64,000 bases of DNA from Pseudovibrio japonicus (GTDB lineage Bacteria > Pseudomonadota > Alphaproteobacteria > Rhizobiales > Stappiaceae): positions 682,001 to 746,000 of the forward strand of contig NZ_BMXE01000001.1 in assembly GCF_014651595.1 (NCBI RefSeq), given 5' to 3'. A program made the position numbers and the translations under genes. The notes below the pieces were generated by a model. That model was not told where the DNA came from. It searched no databases and worked only from the letters and a program-made list of their open reading frames with translations. Numbering within the stretch: position 1 is the stretch's first letter; each line of letters starts with the position of its first letter. Of the stretch, positions 9,632 to 15,978 are shown in pieces.

Positions 9632-11845
9632 ATGACTTACACACACTTTACCCTTGAAACCGATGCAGACGGTTTTGCAGTCCTGAAATGGGACTCACCT
9701 GAAAAGCCGATGAACGTTTTTGACGATTCCGTCATTAACGAGCTGGACAAAGTGATCGACGACATCACTGCCGACGACGCTATCAAAGGTGTTGTTGTAG
9801 CTTCCGGCAAGAAAGCGTTCTCCGCTGGTGCTGACCTTTCCATGATCGGCAAGGCACTTGCGACTTATAAGAAGCGTCAGGGCGTTGATGCGGAAGGTGC
9901 TGCAAAGGAACTGTTTGAAGGCACACGTAAGCTTTCTCTCATCCTACGCAAGCTGGAAACCTCCGGTAAGCCATATGTGGCTGCTGTCAATGGTGTTGCC
10001 ATGGGCGGTGGTACCGAGCTGGCACTGGCCTGTCACAAGCGTGTTGGTGCTGAAGACACCCTGAAGATGGCTCTGCCTGAAGTTAAGGTGGGTCTGTTCC
10101 CAGGTGCTGGTGGTACACAGCGTGTTATGCGTCTGGTTCCTGACCTTCAGGGCGGCTTGCAGTTCCTGATGACCGGTCAGAACCTTGATGCGAAGAAGGC
10201 CATGCGCCTGAAGCTGATCGACGCTGTTGCGCCTGAGGCTGACCTGATTGACGCTGCCAAGAAGATGCTCTCAGAAGGTGTTGACCCTGTTGCACCTTGG
10301 GACAAGAAGGGCTTCAAAATCCCGACTGGTAAGGTTTATTCCCCAGCGGGCATGCAGTTCTGGCCAGCAGCGAACGCGATCTACCGTCAGAACACCTATG
10401 ACAACTATCCGGGCGCACGCTACATGCTGCACTCTGTTGTTGAAGGTCTGATGGTTCCAATCGACGCTGGTCTGACCATCGAGAGCCGCTACTTTGCGCA
10501 TGTTCTGCAGAGCAAGGAAGCAGCTGCCATGGTTCGCTCCCTGTTTGGTTCCATGCAGGAGCTGAACAAAGGTGCTCGCCGTCCAGCTGGCGTACCGGAA
10601 AGCAACCTGAAGAAGGTTGGCGTTCTTGGCGCAGGCATGATGGGTGCAGGTATTGCTTACGTGACAGCGAAAGCTGGCCTTGAGGTTGTTCTGATCGACC
10701 AATCTCAGGAAGCTGCTGACAAGGGTAAGTCTTACTCTGAAGGCCTGATGGACAAAGCGATCAAGCGCGGCAAGTCTACAGCTGAGAAGAAAGAAAAGCT
10801 GCTCGGCCTGATCACCGCAACCACCGACTACAGCGCTCTGAGCGATGTGGATCTGGTGATTGAAGCTGTGTTCGAAGACCGTGAAGTGAAGCGTGTTGTA
10901 ACCGAGAAAGCTGAAGCGGCGATGCCAGCTTCTGCAGTCTACGCGTCCAACACCTCTACCCTTCCGATCACCTCTCTGGCAGAAGCTTCTTCCCGTCCAG
11001 CTGACTTTATCGGCATTCACTTCTTCTCCCCAGTGGACAAGATGATGCTTGTTGAGATCATTCTGGGTGAGAAGACCGAGGACAAGGCAACTGCTGTTGC
11101 TCTGGACTACGTGAAGGCAATCAAGAAGACCCCGATTGTTGTAAACGACAGCCGAGGCTTTTACACCTCCCGCGTGGTTGGCACCTATGTTCGCGAAGGC
11201 ATCATGATGCTTTCCGATGGTGTACCGGCAGCCATGATCGAGAACGCTGGCAAGATGGCAGGCATGCCTGTTGGTCCGCTTTCTCTGGGTGATGAAGTTG
11301 CTCTGGACCTTGCCTGGAAGATTAAAGAAGCAACCAAGAAAGACCTTGGCGATGCTTATCCTTCCAGCGGTTTTGACACCATTCTTGATGCGATGGTTGT
11401 TAAGAACGAGCGCTTTGGCCGTAAGAACTCCAAGGGCTTTTACGACTACAAAGGCAAGGACAAGGCTCTGTGGCCTGGTATCACCGAGATCACTGGTCCA
11501 TCCAAGTCCGCTGATGAGTTTGACGTTGAAGAACTGAAAGATCGCTTGCTGGGCATTCAGGCTCTTGAAACCGCTCGCGTGTTTGAAGAGAACTGTCTGA
11601 CAGACGTTCGTGAAGCAGACGTTGGTTCCATCCTTGGCTTCGGCTTTGCACCATTCTCCGGTGGCACGCTGTCTTACATCGACGGCATCGGCACCAAAGA
11701 GTTCGTGGAACGCTGTGACAAGCTGGCTGCCAAGTACGGCGACCGCTTCGCACCAAACAAACAGCTGCGCGCAATGGCAGAAGCTGGCGAGACCTACTAC
11801 GGTAAGTTCTCCCCTGTAGAAGCTATTGCAGAAGCTGCTGAGTAA
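9632..11845 (+). CDS. fadB: Fatty oxidation complex alpha subunit: enoyl-CoA hydratase / 3-hydroxyacyl-CoA dehydrogenase
   Basis: 737 residues, GGGGAGAGA before the ATG. The N-terminal crotonase domain (1-190) has the oxyanion-hole segment NGVAMGGGTELALACH and the two catalytic glutamates (Glu129, Glu150). The NAD-binding domain begins with the Rossmann motif VGVLGAGMMGAGIA (329-341) and has the catalytic His463 in GIHFFSPVDKM; two C-terminal HCDH domains follow. It hydrates enoyl-CoA and oxidises 3-hydroxyacyl-CoA, passing the product to FadA encoded just upstream. The codon use is highly biased, suggesting strong expression. The operon ends at the hairpins at 11855 and 11895. Confidence 0.95.
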   Translation: MTYTHFTLETDADGFAVLKWDSPEKPMNVFDDSVINELDKVIDDITADDAIKGVVVASGKKAFSAGADLSMIGKALATYKKRQGVDAEGAAKELFEGTRKLSLILRKLETSGKPYVAAVNGVAMGGGTELALACHKRVGAEDTLKMALPEVKVGLFPGAGGTQRVMRLVPDLQGGLQFLMTGQNLDAKKAMRLKLIDAVAPEADLIDAAKKMLSEGVDPVAPWDKKGFKIPTGKVYSPAGMQFWPAANAIYRQNTYDNYPGARYMLHSVVEGLMVPIDAGLTIESRYFAHVLQSKEAAAMVRSLFGSMQELNKGARRPAGVPESNLKKVGVLGAGMMGAGIAYVTAKAGLEVVLIDQSQEAADKGKSYSEGLMDKAIKRGKSTAEKKEKLLGLITATTDYSALSDVDLVIEAVFEDREVKRVVTEKAEAAMPASAVYASNTSTLPITSLAEASSRPADFIGIHFFSPVDKMMLVEIILGEKTEDKATAVALDYVKAIKKTPIVVNDSRGFYTSRVVGTYVREGIMMLSDGVPAAMIENAGKMAGMPVGPLSLGDEVALDLAWKIKEATKKDLGDAYPSSGFDTILDAMVVKNERFGRKNSKGFYDYKGKDKALWPGITEITGPSKSADEFDVEELKDRLLGIQALETARVFEENCLTDVREADVGSILGFGFAPFSGGTLSYIDGIGTKEFVERCDKLAAKYGDRFAPNKQLRAMAEAGETYYGKFSPVEAIAEAAE

Positions 11846-11946: not shown

Positions 11947-12044
11947 GGTCATCCCGCACTTGATGCGGGATCCAGAGCGACAAACTCAACACTTCAGCAT
12001 CCAAGGCATGGATCCCGCATCGCGCTTCGCTTGTGCGGGATGAC
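11947..12044. repeat. Palindromic intergenic repeat (REP/BIME-like)
   Basis: GGTCATCCCGCACTTGATGC... at the left and the matching ...TGCGGGATGAC at the right. Each half is itself a hairpin (ATCCCGCA-n-TGCGGGAT), and the two halves form a large inverted repeat around a 34-base centre. Similar ATCCCGCA/TGCGGGAT elements occur in many copies in alphaproteobacterial intergenic regions; only one copy is in this window. Confidence 0.75.
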
Positions 12045-12189: not shown

Positions 12190-13860
12190 TTAGGCTGGTG
12201 CTTCTACAGATGCAGGTACGAAGTCGTAGCGTTTTTCGTTGGAACTGGCCTTGATCAATCGGAAACCGTTTCTAAGATAAAAATCATTCACCCAGCTTTC
12301 TGGGAAGGTTTCCAACGTAATTGATTTACGCTGCTCTTCGGCGTATTTCTTCAAATAGGTCAGAACGCCGCTTCCAATCCCACGGCTCTGGACGTTGACT
12401 TGAATATAGAGTCGCTCCAAATAGAGGTGGTCGTCACGCTCCCACAAAACATAGAAGCCTACCGTTTTGCCCTGTAGCGTAATTTTGCGTGTGAAAGCAG
12501 GATCAAACGTCTTCTCGAATTCTCTCCCATAAGCGGAGTGATCAAACATTCCGTTCGCTGCCCACTCTTCTTGCATAGCCTCTTGCCTAATATCGGCAAG
12601 CAGATTGAAGTCAGACTTGTCGGCAGCATCCACCGCGAAGTCGCCACAAGTATCCGTGAGCTGCGACAGCTTCCATTCATAGACATTCTCGTCCTCCCGC
12701 TCCTCAAGCAGTGTGAAGCCGTTGTGCTGGTAGAAGGCGTTGGCGCGGCTTTTGGGGAGGACTTCGAGTTTGATGGGTTTGTTTTGCTGTGTGGCCTGTT
12801 GTTTCAGGTGGGTTAGGACTTCTGCCCCGATGCCACGGCCCTGTGCTTTGGGCAGGAAGTAGAGGCGTTCCAGATAGAGGTGGTCAGGTTTGTTCCAGAG
12901 TACGTAGAAGCCAAGGACTTCTTCGTTTTCGGTGATCTTCCATGTGGAGGCCGGGTCGAAGCTGTTTTTGAAGTATTGGCGGTAGAGCGCATGGTCGAAC
13001 AGGCCATTGGCTTCCATATTGTCCTTCATGGCGTGCTGGCGCAGGTCTGCTAGCAGATCAAAGTCCTCAGCTTTCGCCTGCTCCAAGCGCCCGGAGGCTC
13101 GCTCGGAAGGGACTTGCGGAGCATATTCATAGTAATTGTTGAAATCCACGTTGTGCGTGAAGTGGAAGCCGTGGGACTTGTAGAACCTGTTGGAGTTGCT
13201 GATGCGGAGCGCTCCTAAACGGATTGGTTTGCCGACCTGCTGTGCGTGCTCCTTGAGGTTTTGAAGGATTTGTGAGCCGATCCCCTGCCCTTGTGCGGCC
13301 GGCAGTAGGTAGATCATGTCCAGATGGATAAACTCATCATACTCATGGATGGCCGCAAAGCCGAGCAGTTCCCCATCTTGCTCAATCTTCCATGTTGCCT
13401 CGGGCTTGTAGTCTTCAAAGAAATGTCTGCGAGCAAGGGCATAGTCGGTCAGGCCGTTTGCCGCCCATTCATCTTTCATAGCCTCATCGCGAAGGTCAGC
13501 GAGTTGTTCGATATCTTCCGGTTCAGCGCGTTTCAGAATGAAGGATAACGCCTGCTTGATAGCGGCTGTCCCAACATCTTCCCCTTGCTCTTCTGGCAAT
13601 AACCAGAGTTGGCCCCGCTCCACGTGATCAAGCTGCTCGAGCAGCGTGTAGAACCCGATTGTTTTACATCCGCGCACCAGCTTGAACGTCTGTGCAGGAT
13701 TAAAGCTTTGCAAGAAGCTACGGCGTAACCCATCGGGGTTTGAATGCCCCAACGCTTTGCGGCTGTCGTGCGTGGAGGTTACGTATATGTTTGCTAGGAG
13801 GTCTGCGTCGTCAGGTTCCGCAGCGTAGGTAATAAACGGCACACCAATAACTTTCGGCAA
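12190..13860 (-). CDS. Four-fold tandem GNAT acetyltransferase-like protein
   Basis: 556 residues made of four GNAT units in tandem: about 8-108, 109-255, 262-400 and 408-550. Units 2-4 align throughout (RDEAMKDEWAANGLTDYALA, RQHAMKDNMEANGLFDHALY, RQEAMQEEWAANGMFDHSAY) and keep the acetyl-CoA motif as QGQGIGS, QGRGIGA and QSRGIGS. Unit 1 is truncated after its helix 3 and its motif is degenerate (QGEDVGT), so it is probably inactive. Substrates are unknown. No ATG is available at the 5' end: the frame opens at TTG 13860, with GTG 13842 as an alternative, and neither has a good ribosome site. It is convergent with fadB and divergent from the DUF6460 gene. Confidence 0.8.
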   Translation of the reverse strand: MPKVIGVPFITYAAEPDDADLLANIYVTSTHDSRKALGHSNPDGLRRSFLQSFNPAQTFKLVRGCKTIGFYTLLEQLDHVERGQLWLLPEEQGEDVGTAAIKQALSFILKRAEPEDIEQLADLRDEAMKDEWAANGLTDYALARRHFFEDYKPEATWKIEQDGELLGFAAIHEYDEFIHLDMIYLLPAAQGQGIGSQILQNLKEHAQQVGKPIRLGALRISNSNRFYKSHGFHFTHNVDFNNYYEYAPQVPSERASGRLEQAKAEDFDLLADLRQHAMKDNMEANGLFDHALYRQYFKNSFDPASTWKITENEEVLGFYVLWNKPDHLYLERLYFLPKAQGRGIGAEVLTHLKQQATQQNKPIKLEVLPKSRANAFYQHNGFTLLEEREDENVYEWKLSQLTDTCGDFAVDAADKSDFNLLADIRQEAMQEEWAANGMFDHSAYGREFEKTFDPAFTRKITLQGKTVGFYVLWERDDHLYLERLYIQVNVQSRGIGSGVLTYLKKYAEEQRKSITLETFPESWVNDFYLRNGFRLIKASSNEKRYDFVPASVEAPA

Positions 13861-13902: not shown

Positions 13903-14050
13903 CTCGGGCTTCCTATATAGAAATCAATCTTAAGCAATATGCTTTTAACCTAGAGCAGTCAAACTGCCTTGGCTTTCAATTTTTGCGCGTATTCCTGCCG
14001 GTGATCGGCTTTATTTTTATGGGATACGCTTTGGTACAGCGGAGATCTTG

Positions 14051-14323
14051 ATGTCAGACGATAAGTTCAACCGTTTTCTTGGAGACTCGCCAGCACGGGT
14101 TCTCTTTCGGCTGATTTTTCTGTCCCTGATTGTCGGAATTATCCTGGCTGCGCTGGACTTTTCGCCGCTGACGCTGATCTACTCCGTGCAGGAGTTCTTT
14201 GTCAGGATCTGGAATATGGGCTTCTCTGCAATTGAGCGCTTTGGCTCTTACTTCCTGCTTGGCGCCATGGTGGTGGTACCGCTCTGGTTTATCTCCCGGC
14301 TCATGAACTGGCGCGGGCGCTAA
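14051..14323 (+). CDS. DUF6460 small membrane protein
   Basis: 90 residues from ATG 14051 (a TTG one codon earlier is less likely). There are two hydrophobic segments: about 19-38 (FRLIFLSLIVGIILAALDF) and 65-82 (YFLLGAMVVVPLWFIS), separated by an amphipathic stretch with VQEFFVRIWNMGFSAIERFG. The pattern matches the DUF6460 proteins I know from rhizobia (RFLGDxPxRVLxRL start, IWNMGF centre). Function unknown; inner-membrane location predicted. No operon partner. Confidence 0.75.
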   Translation: MSDDKFNRFLGDSPARVLFRLIFLSLIVGIILAALDFSPLTLIYSVQEFFVRIWNMGFSAIERFGSYFLLGAMVVVPLWFISRLMNWRGR

Positions 14324-14351: not shown

Positions 14352-14915
14352 TTACTGCATGCAGATATTGTGGATGTTGACGGAGAGGTTGTCGAAGATC
14401 TCCGGATCTTCGCTGGTGTTGCCCATCAGGACGGCAACTTCCAGAGCAGCAAGTACAAAATCTGATTTCACGAGCGCTTCTTCAGAGGACCAGTCACCGC
14501 TGTATTCCAAGAGATCTGCCAGCCAGAGGCGGTTGCGGCGGGCGAAGGTTGCGGCCAGCTGCTGAAGGTCTTCGGGCAAATCATCGTCCTTGTCCCCGAG
14601 CACGGCTGAAAGGAACAGCTCGCCACCATCTGTCATACCTGCCTGAAAGGCTGCAATGTAGGTGTCCAACGCTCTGCGGAAGTGGAGCGTTTGCATGACG
14701 GGGTCACCCAAAATTTGCAGGAAGCGGTCGATGTACCGTTCCAGCACAGCCCGTTCCACCCCGTTCTTCGAGGGGAACATTCTTGAGATGTCCTGTTTGC
14801 TCGCTCCGGTGGTGCTGGCAAGTTGATTTACATCCAAGCCCAACAGGCCACTTTCGCGGATCATATAATCGGCCGTGTCCAGTACGACGCTTCTATCGGT
14901 GAGCACAACACCCAT
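14352..14915 (-). CDS. TetR-like transcriptional regulator
   Basis: 187 residues with GGGAGACAAGT before the ATG. The N-terminal part (residues 8-60: VVLDTADYMIRESGLLGLDV, LASTTGASKQDISRMFPSKN, AVLERYIDRFLQIL) matches a TetR helix-turn-helix, and the rest is the helical ligand and dimer domain. The helix-turn-helix is somewhat atypical (ISRMFPSKN instead of LYHHFPSK). It is downstream of and convergent with the DUF6460 gene; no clear target gene. Confidence 0.75.
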   Translation of the reverse strand: MGVVLTDRSVVLDTADYMIRESGLLGLDVNQLASTTGASKQDISRMFPSKNGVERAVLERYIDRFLQILGDPVMQTLHFRRALDTYIAAFQAGMTDGGELFLSAVLGDKDDDLPEDLQQLAATFARRNRLWLADLLEYSGDWSSEEALVKSDFVLAALEVAVLMGNTSEDPEIFDNLSVNIHNICMQ

Positions 14916-15072: not shown

Positions 15073-15978
15073 TCATAGGTACTTCGCGGCGGTCTGGTAC
15101 AAAATTGCATGACGACTAACCAATAGTCCTAGATCGAAGGAATACCCTCCCCCTAGGACACCTGCCATTGGGATACCTGCATTCCTTACCATCCTGAAGA
15201 CCAGATCCTCTCTTTTACGCAGGCCATCGTCCGAAAGGGCGAGACGTCCTAACCTGTCCTCATGGTGCGGATCAACGCCAGCGTTGAAGAACACCAGATC
15301 GGCTTTGAAGGTGGCGAGGACCGATTTAAGTGTCTCCTCAAGGATCGTCAGGTACTCGTCATCTTCCATACCATCCCGCAGAGGCACATCGAGCGTGGAG
15401 GCTCTCTTGCGGACCGGGTAGTTCTTTTCTGAGTGAATGGAGAGCGTGAAGACGCTGGCGTCATGGGCGAAGATGTCGGCAGTGCCGTCACCCTGATGGA
15501 CATCTAGATCGATAATGAGCACGCGGGATGCCATGCGCATGGTTTGCACGGTCCTAACGGCAACAGCCACGTCATTAAACACGCAAAAGCCTGCGCCTTG
15601 TGCAATTCGAGCGTGGTGTGAGCCGCCTGCGGTGTTGCAGGCAATACCGTGCTCCAAAGCCAGCATTGCGGTGAGCAGAGAGCCTCCTGTAGCGCATTGC
15701 GCACGAAAGGACACGCTCTCGTTCATTGGAAAGCCGATCTCGCGGGCAATGGCGCGGGGGACCTGACAGCAGAGGACCTGATCGACATAGTCCTTAGCAT
15801 GAACGCGCAGCAGGTTCTCTCTGGAGATTGGTGTGGGCTCGTGAAACTCATAGAGCCCGCCGTGCGGGTCGGTTTCTTTCAACCACTGAGCCACGCCGGC
15901 ATACTTGCGCATCGGGAAGCGGTGGTTTTCGGGAATATCTGCCGTGTAGGCGGGATGATGCACGATTGGTAGCTTCAC
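15073..15978 (-). CDS. Histone-deacetylase-family amidohydrolase
   Basis: 301 residues. Zinc-dependent deacetylase fold with the expected active site: His-His at 121-122 (NTAGGSHHARIAQGAGFCVF), zinc ligands Asp159 and His161 (IDLDVHQGDGT) and Asp236 (NAGVDPHHED), and the transition-state Tyr279 in GGGYS. Bacterial members deacetylate acetylpolyamines, acetylated small molecules or protein lysines; this short class (about 300 residues, starting LPIVHHPAY) is widespread in alphaproteobacteria. Cytosolic. Single gene. Confidence 0.9.
   Translation of the reverse strand: MKLPIVHHPAYTADIPENHRFPMRKYAGVAQWLKETDPHGGLYEFHEPTPISRENLLRVHAKDYVDQVLCCQVPRAIAREIGFPMNESVSFRAQCATGGSLLTAMLALEHGIACNTAGGSHHARIAQGAGFCVFNDVAVAVRTVQTMRMASRVLIIDLDVHQGDGTADIFAHDASVFTLSIHSEKNYPVRKRASTLDVPLRDGMEDDEYLTILEETLKSVLATFKADLVFFNAGVDPHHEDRLGRLALSDDGLRKREDLVFRMVRNAGIPMAGVLGGGYSFDLGLLVSRHAILYQTAAKYL

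Follow-up and report, generated by a model that had tools for sequence, protein, structure and literature searches.

An open reading frame at positions 12190–13860, on the minus strand of the window (the whole 64,000-nucleotide stretch of Pseudovibrio japonicus DNA analysed here), is composed of one truncated and three complete GNAT units. Based on its sequence and on comparison with related genomes, the locus is probably one version of a modular multi-GNAT array found in Pseudovibrio, in which the complete units would be specialised acyltransferases and the first unit of the present chain a dead leader. Across the genus, the arrays are built from six unit classes, which stand in a nearly constant order, are fused in frame and are lost by deletion.

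Composition of the chain

The frame encodes 556 amino acids if read from a TTG at its head and 550 if read from the GTG at 13842. By class, the chain of the window's genome (G000) is A(truncated)-B1-D-E, with the following elements:

13858..13860, minus strand: alternative upstream start codon TTG, not common to all relatives
13840..13842, minus strand: likely start codon GTG (550-aa protein), carried by each of the 5 genomes that have this leader (G000, G002, G004, G009, G015)
13549..13842, minus strand: unit 1 (U1), class A, truncated GNAT; groups with unit 1 of G009 in the unit tree (98/94)
13570..13587, minus strand: broken acetyl-CoA motif QGEDVG, the first Gly of QxxGxG being changed to Asp in a column invariant in the 18-row alignment without unit 1
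13549..13551, minus strand: codon at the junction of a 159-nt in-frame deletion, seen as a contiguous gap against G009, G015 and G002
13114..13548, minus strand: unit 2 (U2), class B1, complete GNAT; PF00583 59.1 bits alone, clade 100/98, complete predicted fold
12661..13113, minus strand: unit 3 (U3), class D, complete GNAT; PF00583 50.3 bits alone, class D in the tree, complete predicted fold
12193..12660, minus strand: unit 4 (U4), class E, complete GNAT and end of the chain; PF00583 36.9 bits alone, complete predicted fold
12190..12192, minus strand: stop codon of the chain

An earlier note on this DNA had proposed four tandem GNAT units arisen by intragenic duplication, and both points are borne out: local alignments of all six unit pairs scored 116–360 vs a maximum of 61 among shuffled sequences (200 per pair), Pfam recognised GNAT in units 2–4, and unit 1, which on its own gave no Pfam match at E 0.1, was recovered by a profile made from units 2–4 (E 3.4e-13). 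Complete units inside the chain are 35–50% identical to one another, with identical positions at 69/138 for U3 and U4, 60/138 for U2 and U3 and 50/142 for U2 and U4; unit 1 shares 26/94 with U2, 29/88 with U3 and 29/93 with U4. The long identical stretches that had been ascribed to units 2–4 together are real, but each is common to two of them only (EWAANG to U2 and U4, LYLERLY and DPA-T-KI to U3 and U4). The acetyl-CoA motif of the GNAT superfamily is Q/RxxGxG/A; as the same note had observed, units 2–4 keep it (QGQGIG, QGRGIG and QSRGIG, respectively), and unit 1 departs from it with QGEDVG. In 18 aligned complete units, which cover all classes, columns Q91, G94, G96 and Y128 do not vary.

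PF00583 has 70 matches in the whole genome, of which three lie in the frame of the chain, two in an open reading frame of 311 aa and, by eye, at most one per frame elsewhere. Two PF00583 matches also occur in L062:433-1326 (minus strand), an open reading frame of 297 aa in the same genome. A second GNAT expansion, outside the window on contig C2 of this genome (L061:2372-9571), consists of ten consecutive GNAT genes, all separate and all on one strand; the genes flanking them are presumably rplU-like and obgE-like, as named from their translations alone.

Start of translation

There is no in-frame ATG at the head of the frame, as the earlier note had remarked, and no strong ribosome-binding site was seen before the GTG at 13842. 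The doubt cast on expression is nevertheless weakened, since this GTG is found in all five genomes with the leader and an ATG lies at nearly the same point in four others (G003, G006, G007 and G010); from these alignments, GTG 13842 is the likely start codon of the chain. Between 13599 and 13479 there is no in-frame ATG, GTG or TTG, so unit 2 with its first strand cannot be made without part of unit 1, and an internal start that skips unit 1 entirely was rejected for the same reason. The remnant of unit 1 may thus have stayed open because unit 2 needs a start within or upstream of it.

Arrays across Pseudovibrio

Among 61 genomes searched, matches at E 1e-15 or less were obtained in 12, all of them Pseudovibrio. 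The genus set comprised 16 Pseudovibrio genomes, one per species, and in ten of these the units stand beside a tetR-like gene and a fadJ-like gene, with one to four units each; in G003 the contig ends inside the site and fadJ lies on a different contig. Nine genomes, the window's included, have at least three units fused in a single frame: the one-frame arrays of the eight others hold three or four units, that of G004 being three and part of a fourth. Relatives with names that carry the chain are P. ascidiaceicola DSM 16392 (L004), P. denitrificans JCM 12308 (L006) and an uncultured Pseudovibrio (L005). The single distant unit of G011 and that of G013 served as outgroup and are excluded from the array counts; G001, G008, G012 and G014 have no units at E 1e-15. 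The arrays are as follows:

G000: a-B1-D-E (a, truncated A)
G002: A-B1-B2, followed by a c/d scar and, in a different frame, E
G003: A-C-E-like, with D following in a gene of its own
G004: A-B1-B2-C, the last unit being divided over two frames
G005: D alone (not counted among the nine multi-unit arrays)
G006 and G010, close sisters: A-B2-C, and 0.9 kb further D in an open frame of its own
G007: A-B-D-E
G009: A-B1-D
G015: A-B1-C-D

The split unit C of G004 may be either a true frameshift or a sequencing error. Between units C and D of G006 lies an open reading frame of 268 aa (L006:5390-6196, minus strand) with no Pfam match at E 0.001; the gap in G010 is of similar size.

Unit classes, order and history

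The earlier note had called for a phylogeny of the four units against single-unit homologues. In a tree of 39 units, with the single units of G011 and G013 as outgroup and a 38-aa D fragment of G002 excluded, units of one class (A, B1, B2, C, D or E) group together and those of one genome do not, U4 falling into a clade (99/97) with unit 5 of G002 and unit 4 of G007. Trees of the two gene halves, from which the G002 fragment and the latter part of the divided G004 unit were excluded, each need only 8 label changes, the lowest number possible, vs means of 25.3 and 24.3 for shuffled labels, with none as low in 200; class D does not form one clade in the C-half, nor B2 in the N-half, and unit 2 of G007 and unit 3 of G003 look mixed. 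Judged from these trees, the unit classes are older than the divergence of the Pseudovibrio species and the duplication is not recent. Class-specific columns were not confined to one site and are spread over the fold, with the highest mean in alpha2 and the lowest in beta5; they single out no one substrate site.

Eight of the nine multi-unit arrays are ordered subsets of A-B1-B2-C-D-E, the exception being G003. In G002, 104 nt resembling the B2-C junction of G004 (93%) abut 100 nt from the terminal part of D (88% to G010), followed by E; by its sequence, we read this scar as a deletion relic in which the beginning of C is fused to the last part of D, which implies that B2-C and D-E once stood in a single longer array. 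G002, G004, G009 and G015 form one clade in the tree of the tetR-like and fadJ genes (100/100) and have four different arrays.

In a wider survey, a profile of 18 units had matches at E 1e-18 in 8 of the 289 genomes sampled from the class and at E 1e-20 in 12 of the 398 sampled from the phylum; both counts include the window's genome, whose four units were all recovered. Outside Pseudovibrio (288 genomes of the class, 397 of the phylum) no genome had more than one unit, with the best 13 or 10 candidates per genome scored, so that in the genomes sampled multi-unit chains seem restricted to Pseudovibrio. The best 15 of 19 records of a plasmid search were 27.6–36.6% identical over stretches of at most about 600 bases, and by their shortness and low identity they would be single-unit relatives.

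Decay of unit 1 and selection on the units

That the first unit is degenerate, as had been claimed, is confirmed by an in-frame deletion, by substitutions and by its motif. Against G009, G015 and G002, unit 1 shows a single contiguous gap of 159 nt (53 codons), with which half of its fold is gone. Of 18 family-invariant columns, defined on an alignment of 18 other units with unit 1 excluded, eight are deleted, three are substituted (R25, M29, G94) and seven are kept (by eye). Its divergence extends outside the deleted stretch, and its branch in the tree is 0.9, vs 0.14 for the nearest relative.

Ratios of dN/dS were obtained by the method of Nei and Gojobori, with dS >1 in most pairs. Unit 1 gave 0.26–0.41 against six relatives (two further pairs were saturated), unit 2 gave 0.08–0.11 against four (a fifth was saturated), unit 3 gave 0.09–0.21 against seven and unit 4 gave 0.06 in one defined pair. 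It should be noted that the intact unit A of G009 likewise reaches 0.26–0.28 in its pairs with three relatives; on this measure, unit 1 of the window is thus only modestly relaxed. Units 2 and 3, at 0.08–0.21, are by these ratios under purifying selection.

Neighbourhood of the array

The genes around the array are:

9632..11845, plus strand: fadJ-like fatty-oxidation gene flanking the array downstream, with 3HCDH and ECH domains
14048..14323, plus strand: gene for a small DUF6460 protein (PF20061, 70.6 bits) between the tetR-like gene and the array
14352..14915, minus strand: TetR-like regulator gene, with a close homologue (76–100% identity) in the same 10 of 16 genomes as the units
15073-15978: histone-deacetylase-family gene

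The product of the tetR-like gene gave no Pfam match at E 0.001 and weak matches to TetR-family models, all below the cut-off; an eleventh match to the gene, in G008, is only 27% identical. A fadJ match is present in all 16 genomes of the genus, with 47–54% identity only in G011 and G013. The histone-deacetylase-family gene was found at E 1e-50 in 12 of the 16, among them four of the six genomes that lack the array (G008, G012, G013 and G014; not G001 or G011), and since it is kept there, a functional pair of this gene and the array was rejected; by its distribution, the gene is probably a bystander. In G008 and G012 it lies approximately 450 nt from fadJ in what looks like an empty site, and the array together with the tetR-like gene probably entered or arose between the two.

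A partly palindromic repeat of 27 bases stands beside the array at 11948-11974. It has ten copies in the genome with at most three mismatches (none in the control), at seven separate sites, of which four are within 2 kb of a PF00583 gene, a pattern seen after the fact.

Predicted structure

In an AlphaFold model of the window chain (mean pLDDT 80.7, pTM 0.46), units 2–4 have the complete topology beta1-alpha1-alpha2-beta2-beta3-beta4-alpha3-beta5-alpha4-beta6-beta7, and unit 1 runs from beta1 no further than a stub of alpha3 and ends after model residue 97, without beta5, alpha4, beta6 and beta7. The four-unit chain of P. ascidiaceicola (L004) is modelled with four complete folds (mean pLDDT 85.4, pTM 0.50). 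Crossed last strands connect the two lobes of VipF, according to the part of PMC10936415 drawn on here; with pTM of 0.46 and 0.50, the arrangement of units in our models, including any such packing, is not trusted.

VIA-align 2 against known GNATs gave Z of 15–19, the aligned rows being mostly units 3 and 4. Foldseek with the window chain placed VipF first and MAB_4324 third. Its first 14 matches include large axonemal chains (9fqr_Xg, 8j07_d0, 8glv_LZ and 9d2f_J) with low TM-scores, which perhaps reflect GNAT-like repeats in a ciliary protein.

Possible function of the chain and other explanations

According to the interpretation that we favour, each complete unit would be a working acetyl-CoA-dependent N-acyltransferase, the classes would differ in their acceptor substrate, and fusion would bring several related activities together in a single polypeptide. 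As a default guess from the fold, the acceptors would be the amino groups of peptide ends or of small molecules. Unit 1 of the window's genome would be catalytically dead and retained as the holder of the start codon, there being none next to the head of unit 2, so that it would now serve as leader for three active units. A more ambitious form of this proposal, which we put forward tentatively, is that of a combinatorial acyltransferase chain, in which one polypeptide would join active sites from as many as six specialised classes, taken from a set with a fixed order, and species would tune their acylation repertoire by in-frame module loss, the dead first module being a translation leader here.

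One alternative that deserves real weight, though we consider it rather doubtful, is that catalysis is confined to one unit, the remaining ones being acyl-CoA-binding lobes with a structural or regulatory role, as in two-unit tandem GNATs. In the part of PMC10936415 available to us, a single domain appears active in the tandem GNATs characterised so far, with one active lobe each in VipF and MshD, so the conserved motifs are no proof that all three units work; the Foldseek ranking of VipF and MAB_4324 fits this alternative as well. Against it speak the motif and Tyr columns, which are invariant in the complete units of all classes, the occurrence of complete units as lone open frames in G005, G003, G006 and G010, and the similar purifying selection on units 2 and 3.

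Another explanation, which we regard as unlikely, is dosage: the units would catalyse the same reaction and repeats would merely raise the amount of enzyme or its avidity. Fold and family are indeed identical and copy number differs among species; however, the complete units of the chain have diverged to the 35–50% identity given above, class identity is kept across species, and patches of mixed ancestry (unit 2 of G007, unit 3 of G003) are present and have not erased the classes. Less credible still would be the neutral wear of a useless locus, to which the truncated unit 1, the split unit C of G004, the out-of-frame scar of G002 and the single unit of G005 might be attributed, but which agrees poorly with the low dN/dS of units 2 and 3 and with a frame that stays open over 550 codons despite the loss of 159 nt. 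Finally, it is extremely improbable that a sequencing or assembly error fused separate genes, which the earlier note had named as what would refute it, or that a collapsed repeat shortened unit 1: one unit is a separate open frame in G003, G006 and G010, but nine other genomes have units at the site, eight of them with fusions of at least three units in one open frame (three of these also present in a second collection), the deletion keeps the frame, the rest of U1 has diverged as well, and the units would be too different to collapse in assembly.

Whatever the case, the arrays form a natural series, in which the same unit classes occur in one- to four-unit arrays of close relatives, some of them free-standing; they allow the activity of a class to be compared between its lone and its fused form, and module loss to be traced over short times.

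Comparison with known systems

The RimI model (TIGR01575), which shares the GNAT fold with the window chain, scored 94.2 on the whole chain vs a curated cut-off of 86.4, and only 35.2, 36.4 and 26.1 bits on units 2–4 alone. The RimI annotation by NCBIfam was rejected, since the cut-off is passed only by the summed unit scores; on repeated units this model is a trap for mis-annotation.

Single-unit GNATs with an 'MRxSLEAxGxF' helix (L044 in G011, L045 in G013) resemble class A in sequence and are perhaps the parent type of the units. They differ in having one unit per gene and in standing far from fadJ (on another contig in G013, at 1.3 Mb in G011). In the part seen, a sponge resistance paper (PMC5112248) has a GNAT gene whose source is environmental DNA libraries.

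Several GNAT domains in one protein are also found in class III or type V lysine acetyltransferases, which are described in the section of PMC6456759 consulted as proteins of ~400 aa with multiple GNAT domains and Eis as the sole characterised example. Homologues of Eis also carry a sterol-carrier fold (PMC5799202, in part); this fold, which in Eis comes with two GNAT regions, was not found in the window chain by Pfam, which at E 0.1 gives GNAT-type models only.

Two-unit tandem GNATs are already known; among the literature matches listed (open-licence texts), there was no GNAT chain of at least three units and none of a combinatorial kind. GNAT domains are fused in one chain, as in the window, in the two-domain proteins MshD, CBG (clavulanic acid cluster), GlmA, VipF and MAB_4324, and the Foldseek list holds all five (1ozp, 2wpw, 5kf1, 7wx5, 7q3a). 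In sequence, VipF is a weak match (7wx5, E 1.4e-4); the top PDB entry by sequence is a single-GNAT chain (3zj0, E 5.4e-6). Why GNAT folds become duplicated in one chain is described as unclear in the portion of PMC10936415 cited, and the arrays bear on this question. Proteins of the MshD and VipF type have two lobes, whereas the window chain has three complete units and one partial unit, and the Pseudovibrio arrays differ further from two-domain tandem GNATs in having six classes, of which different species carry different subsets.
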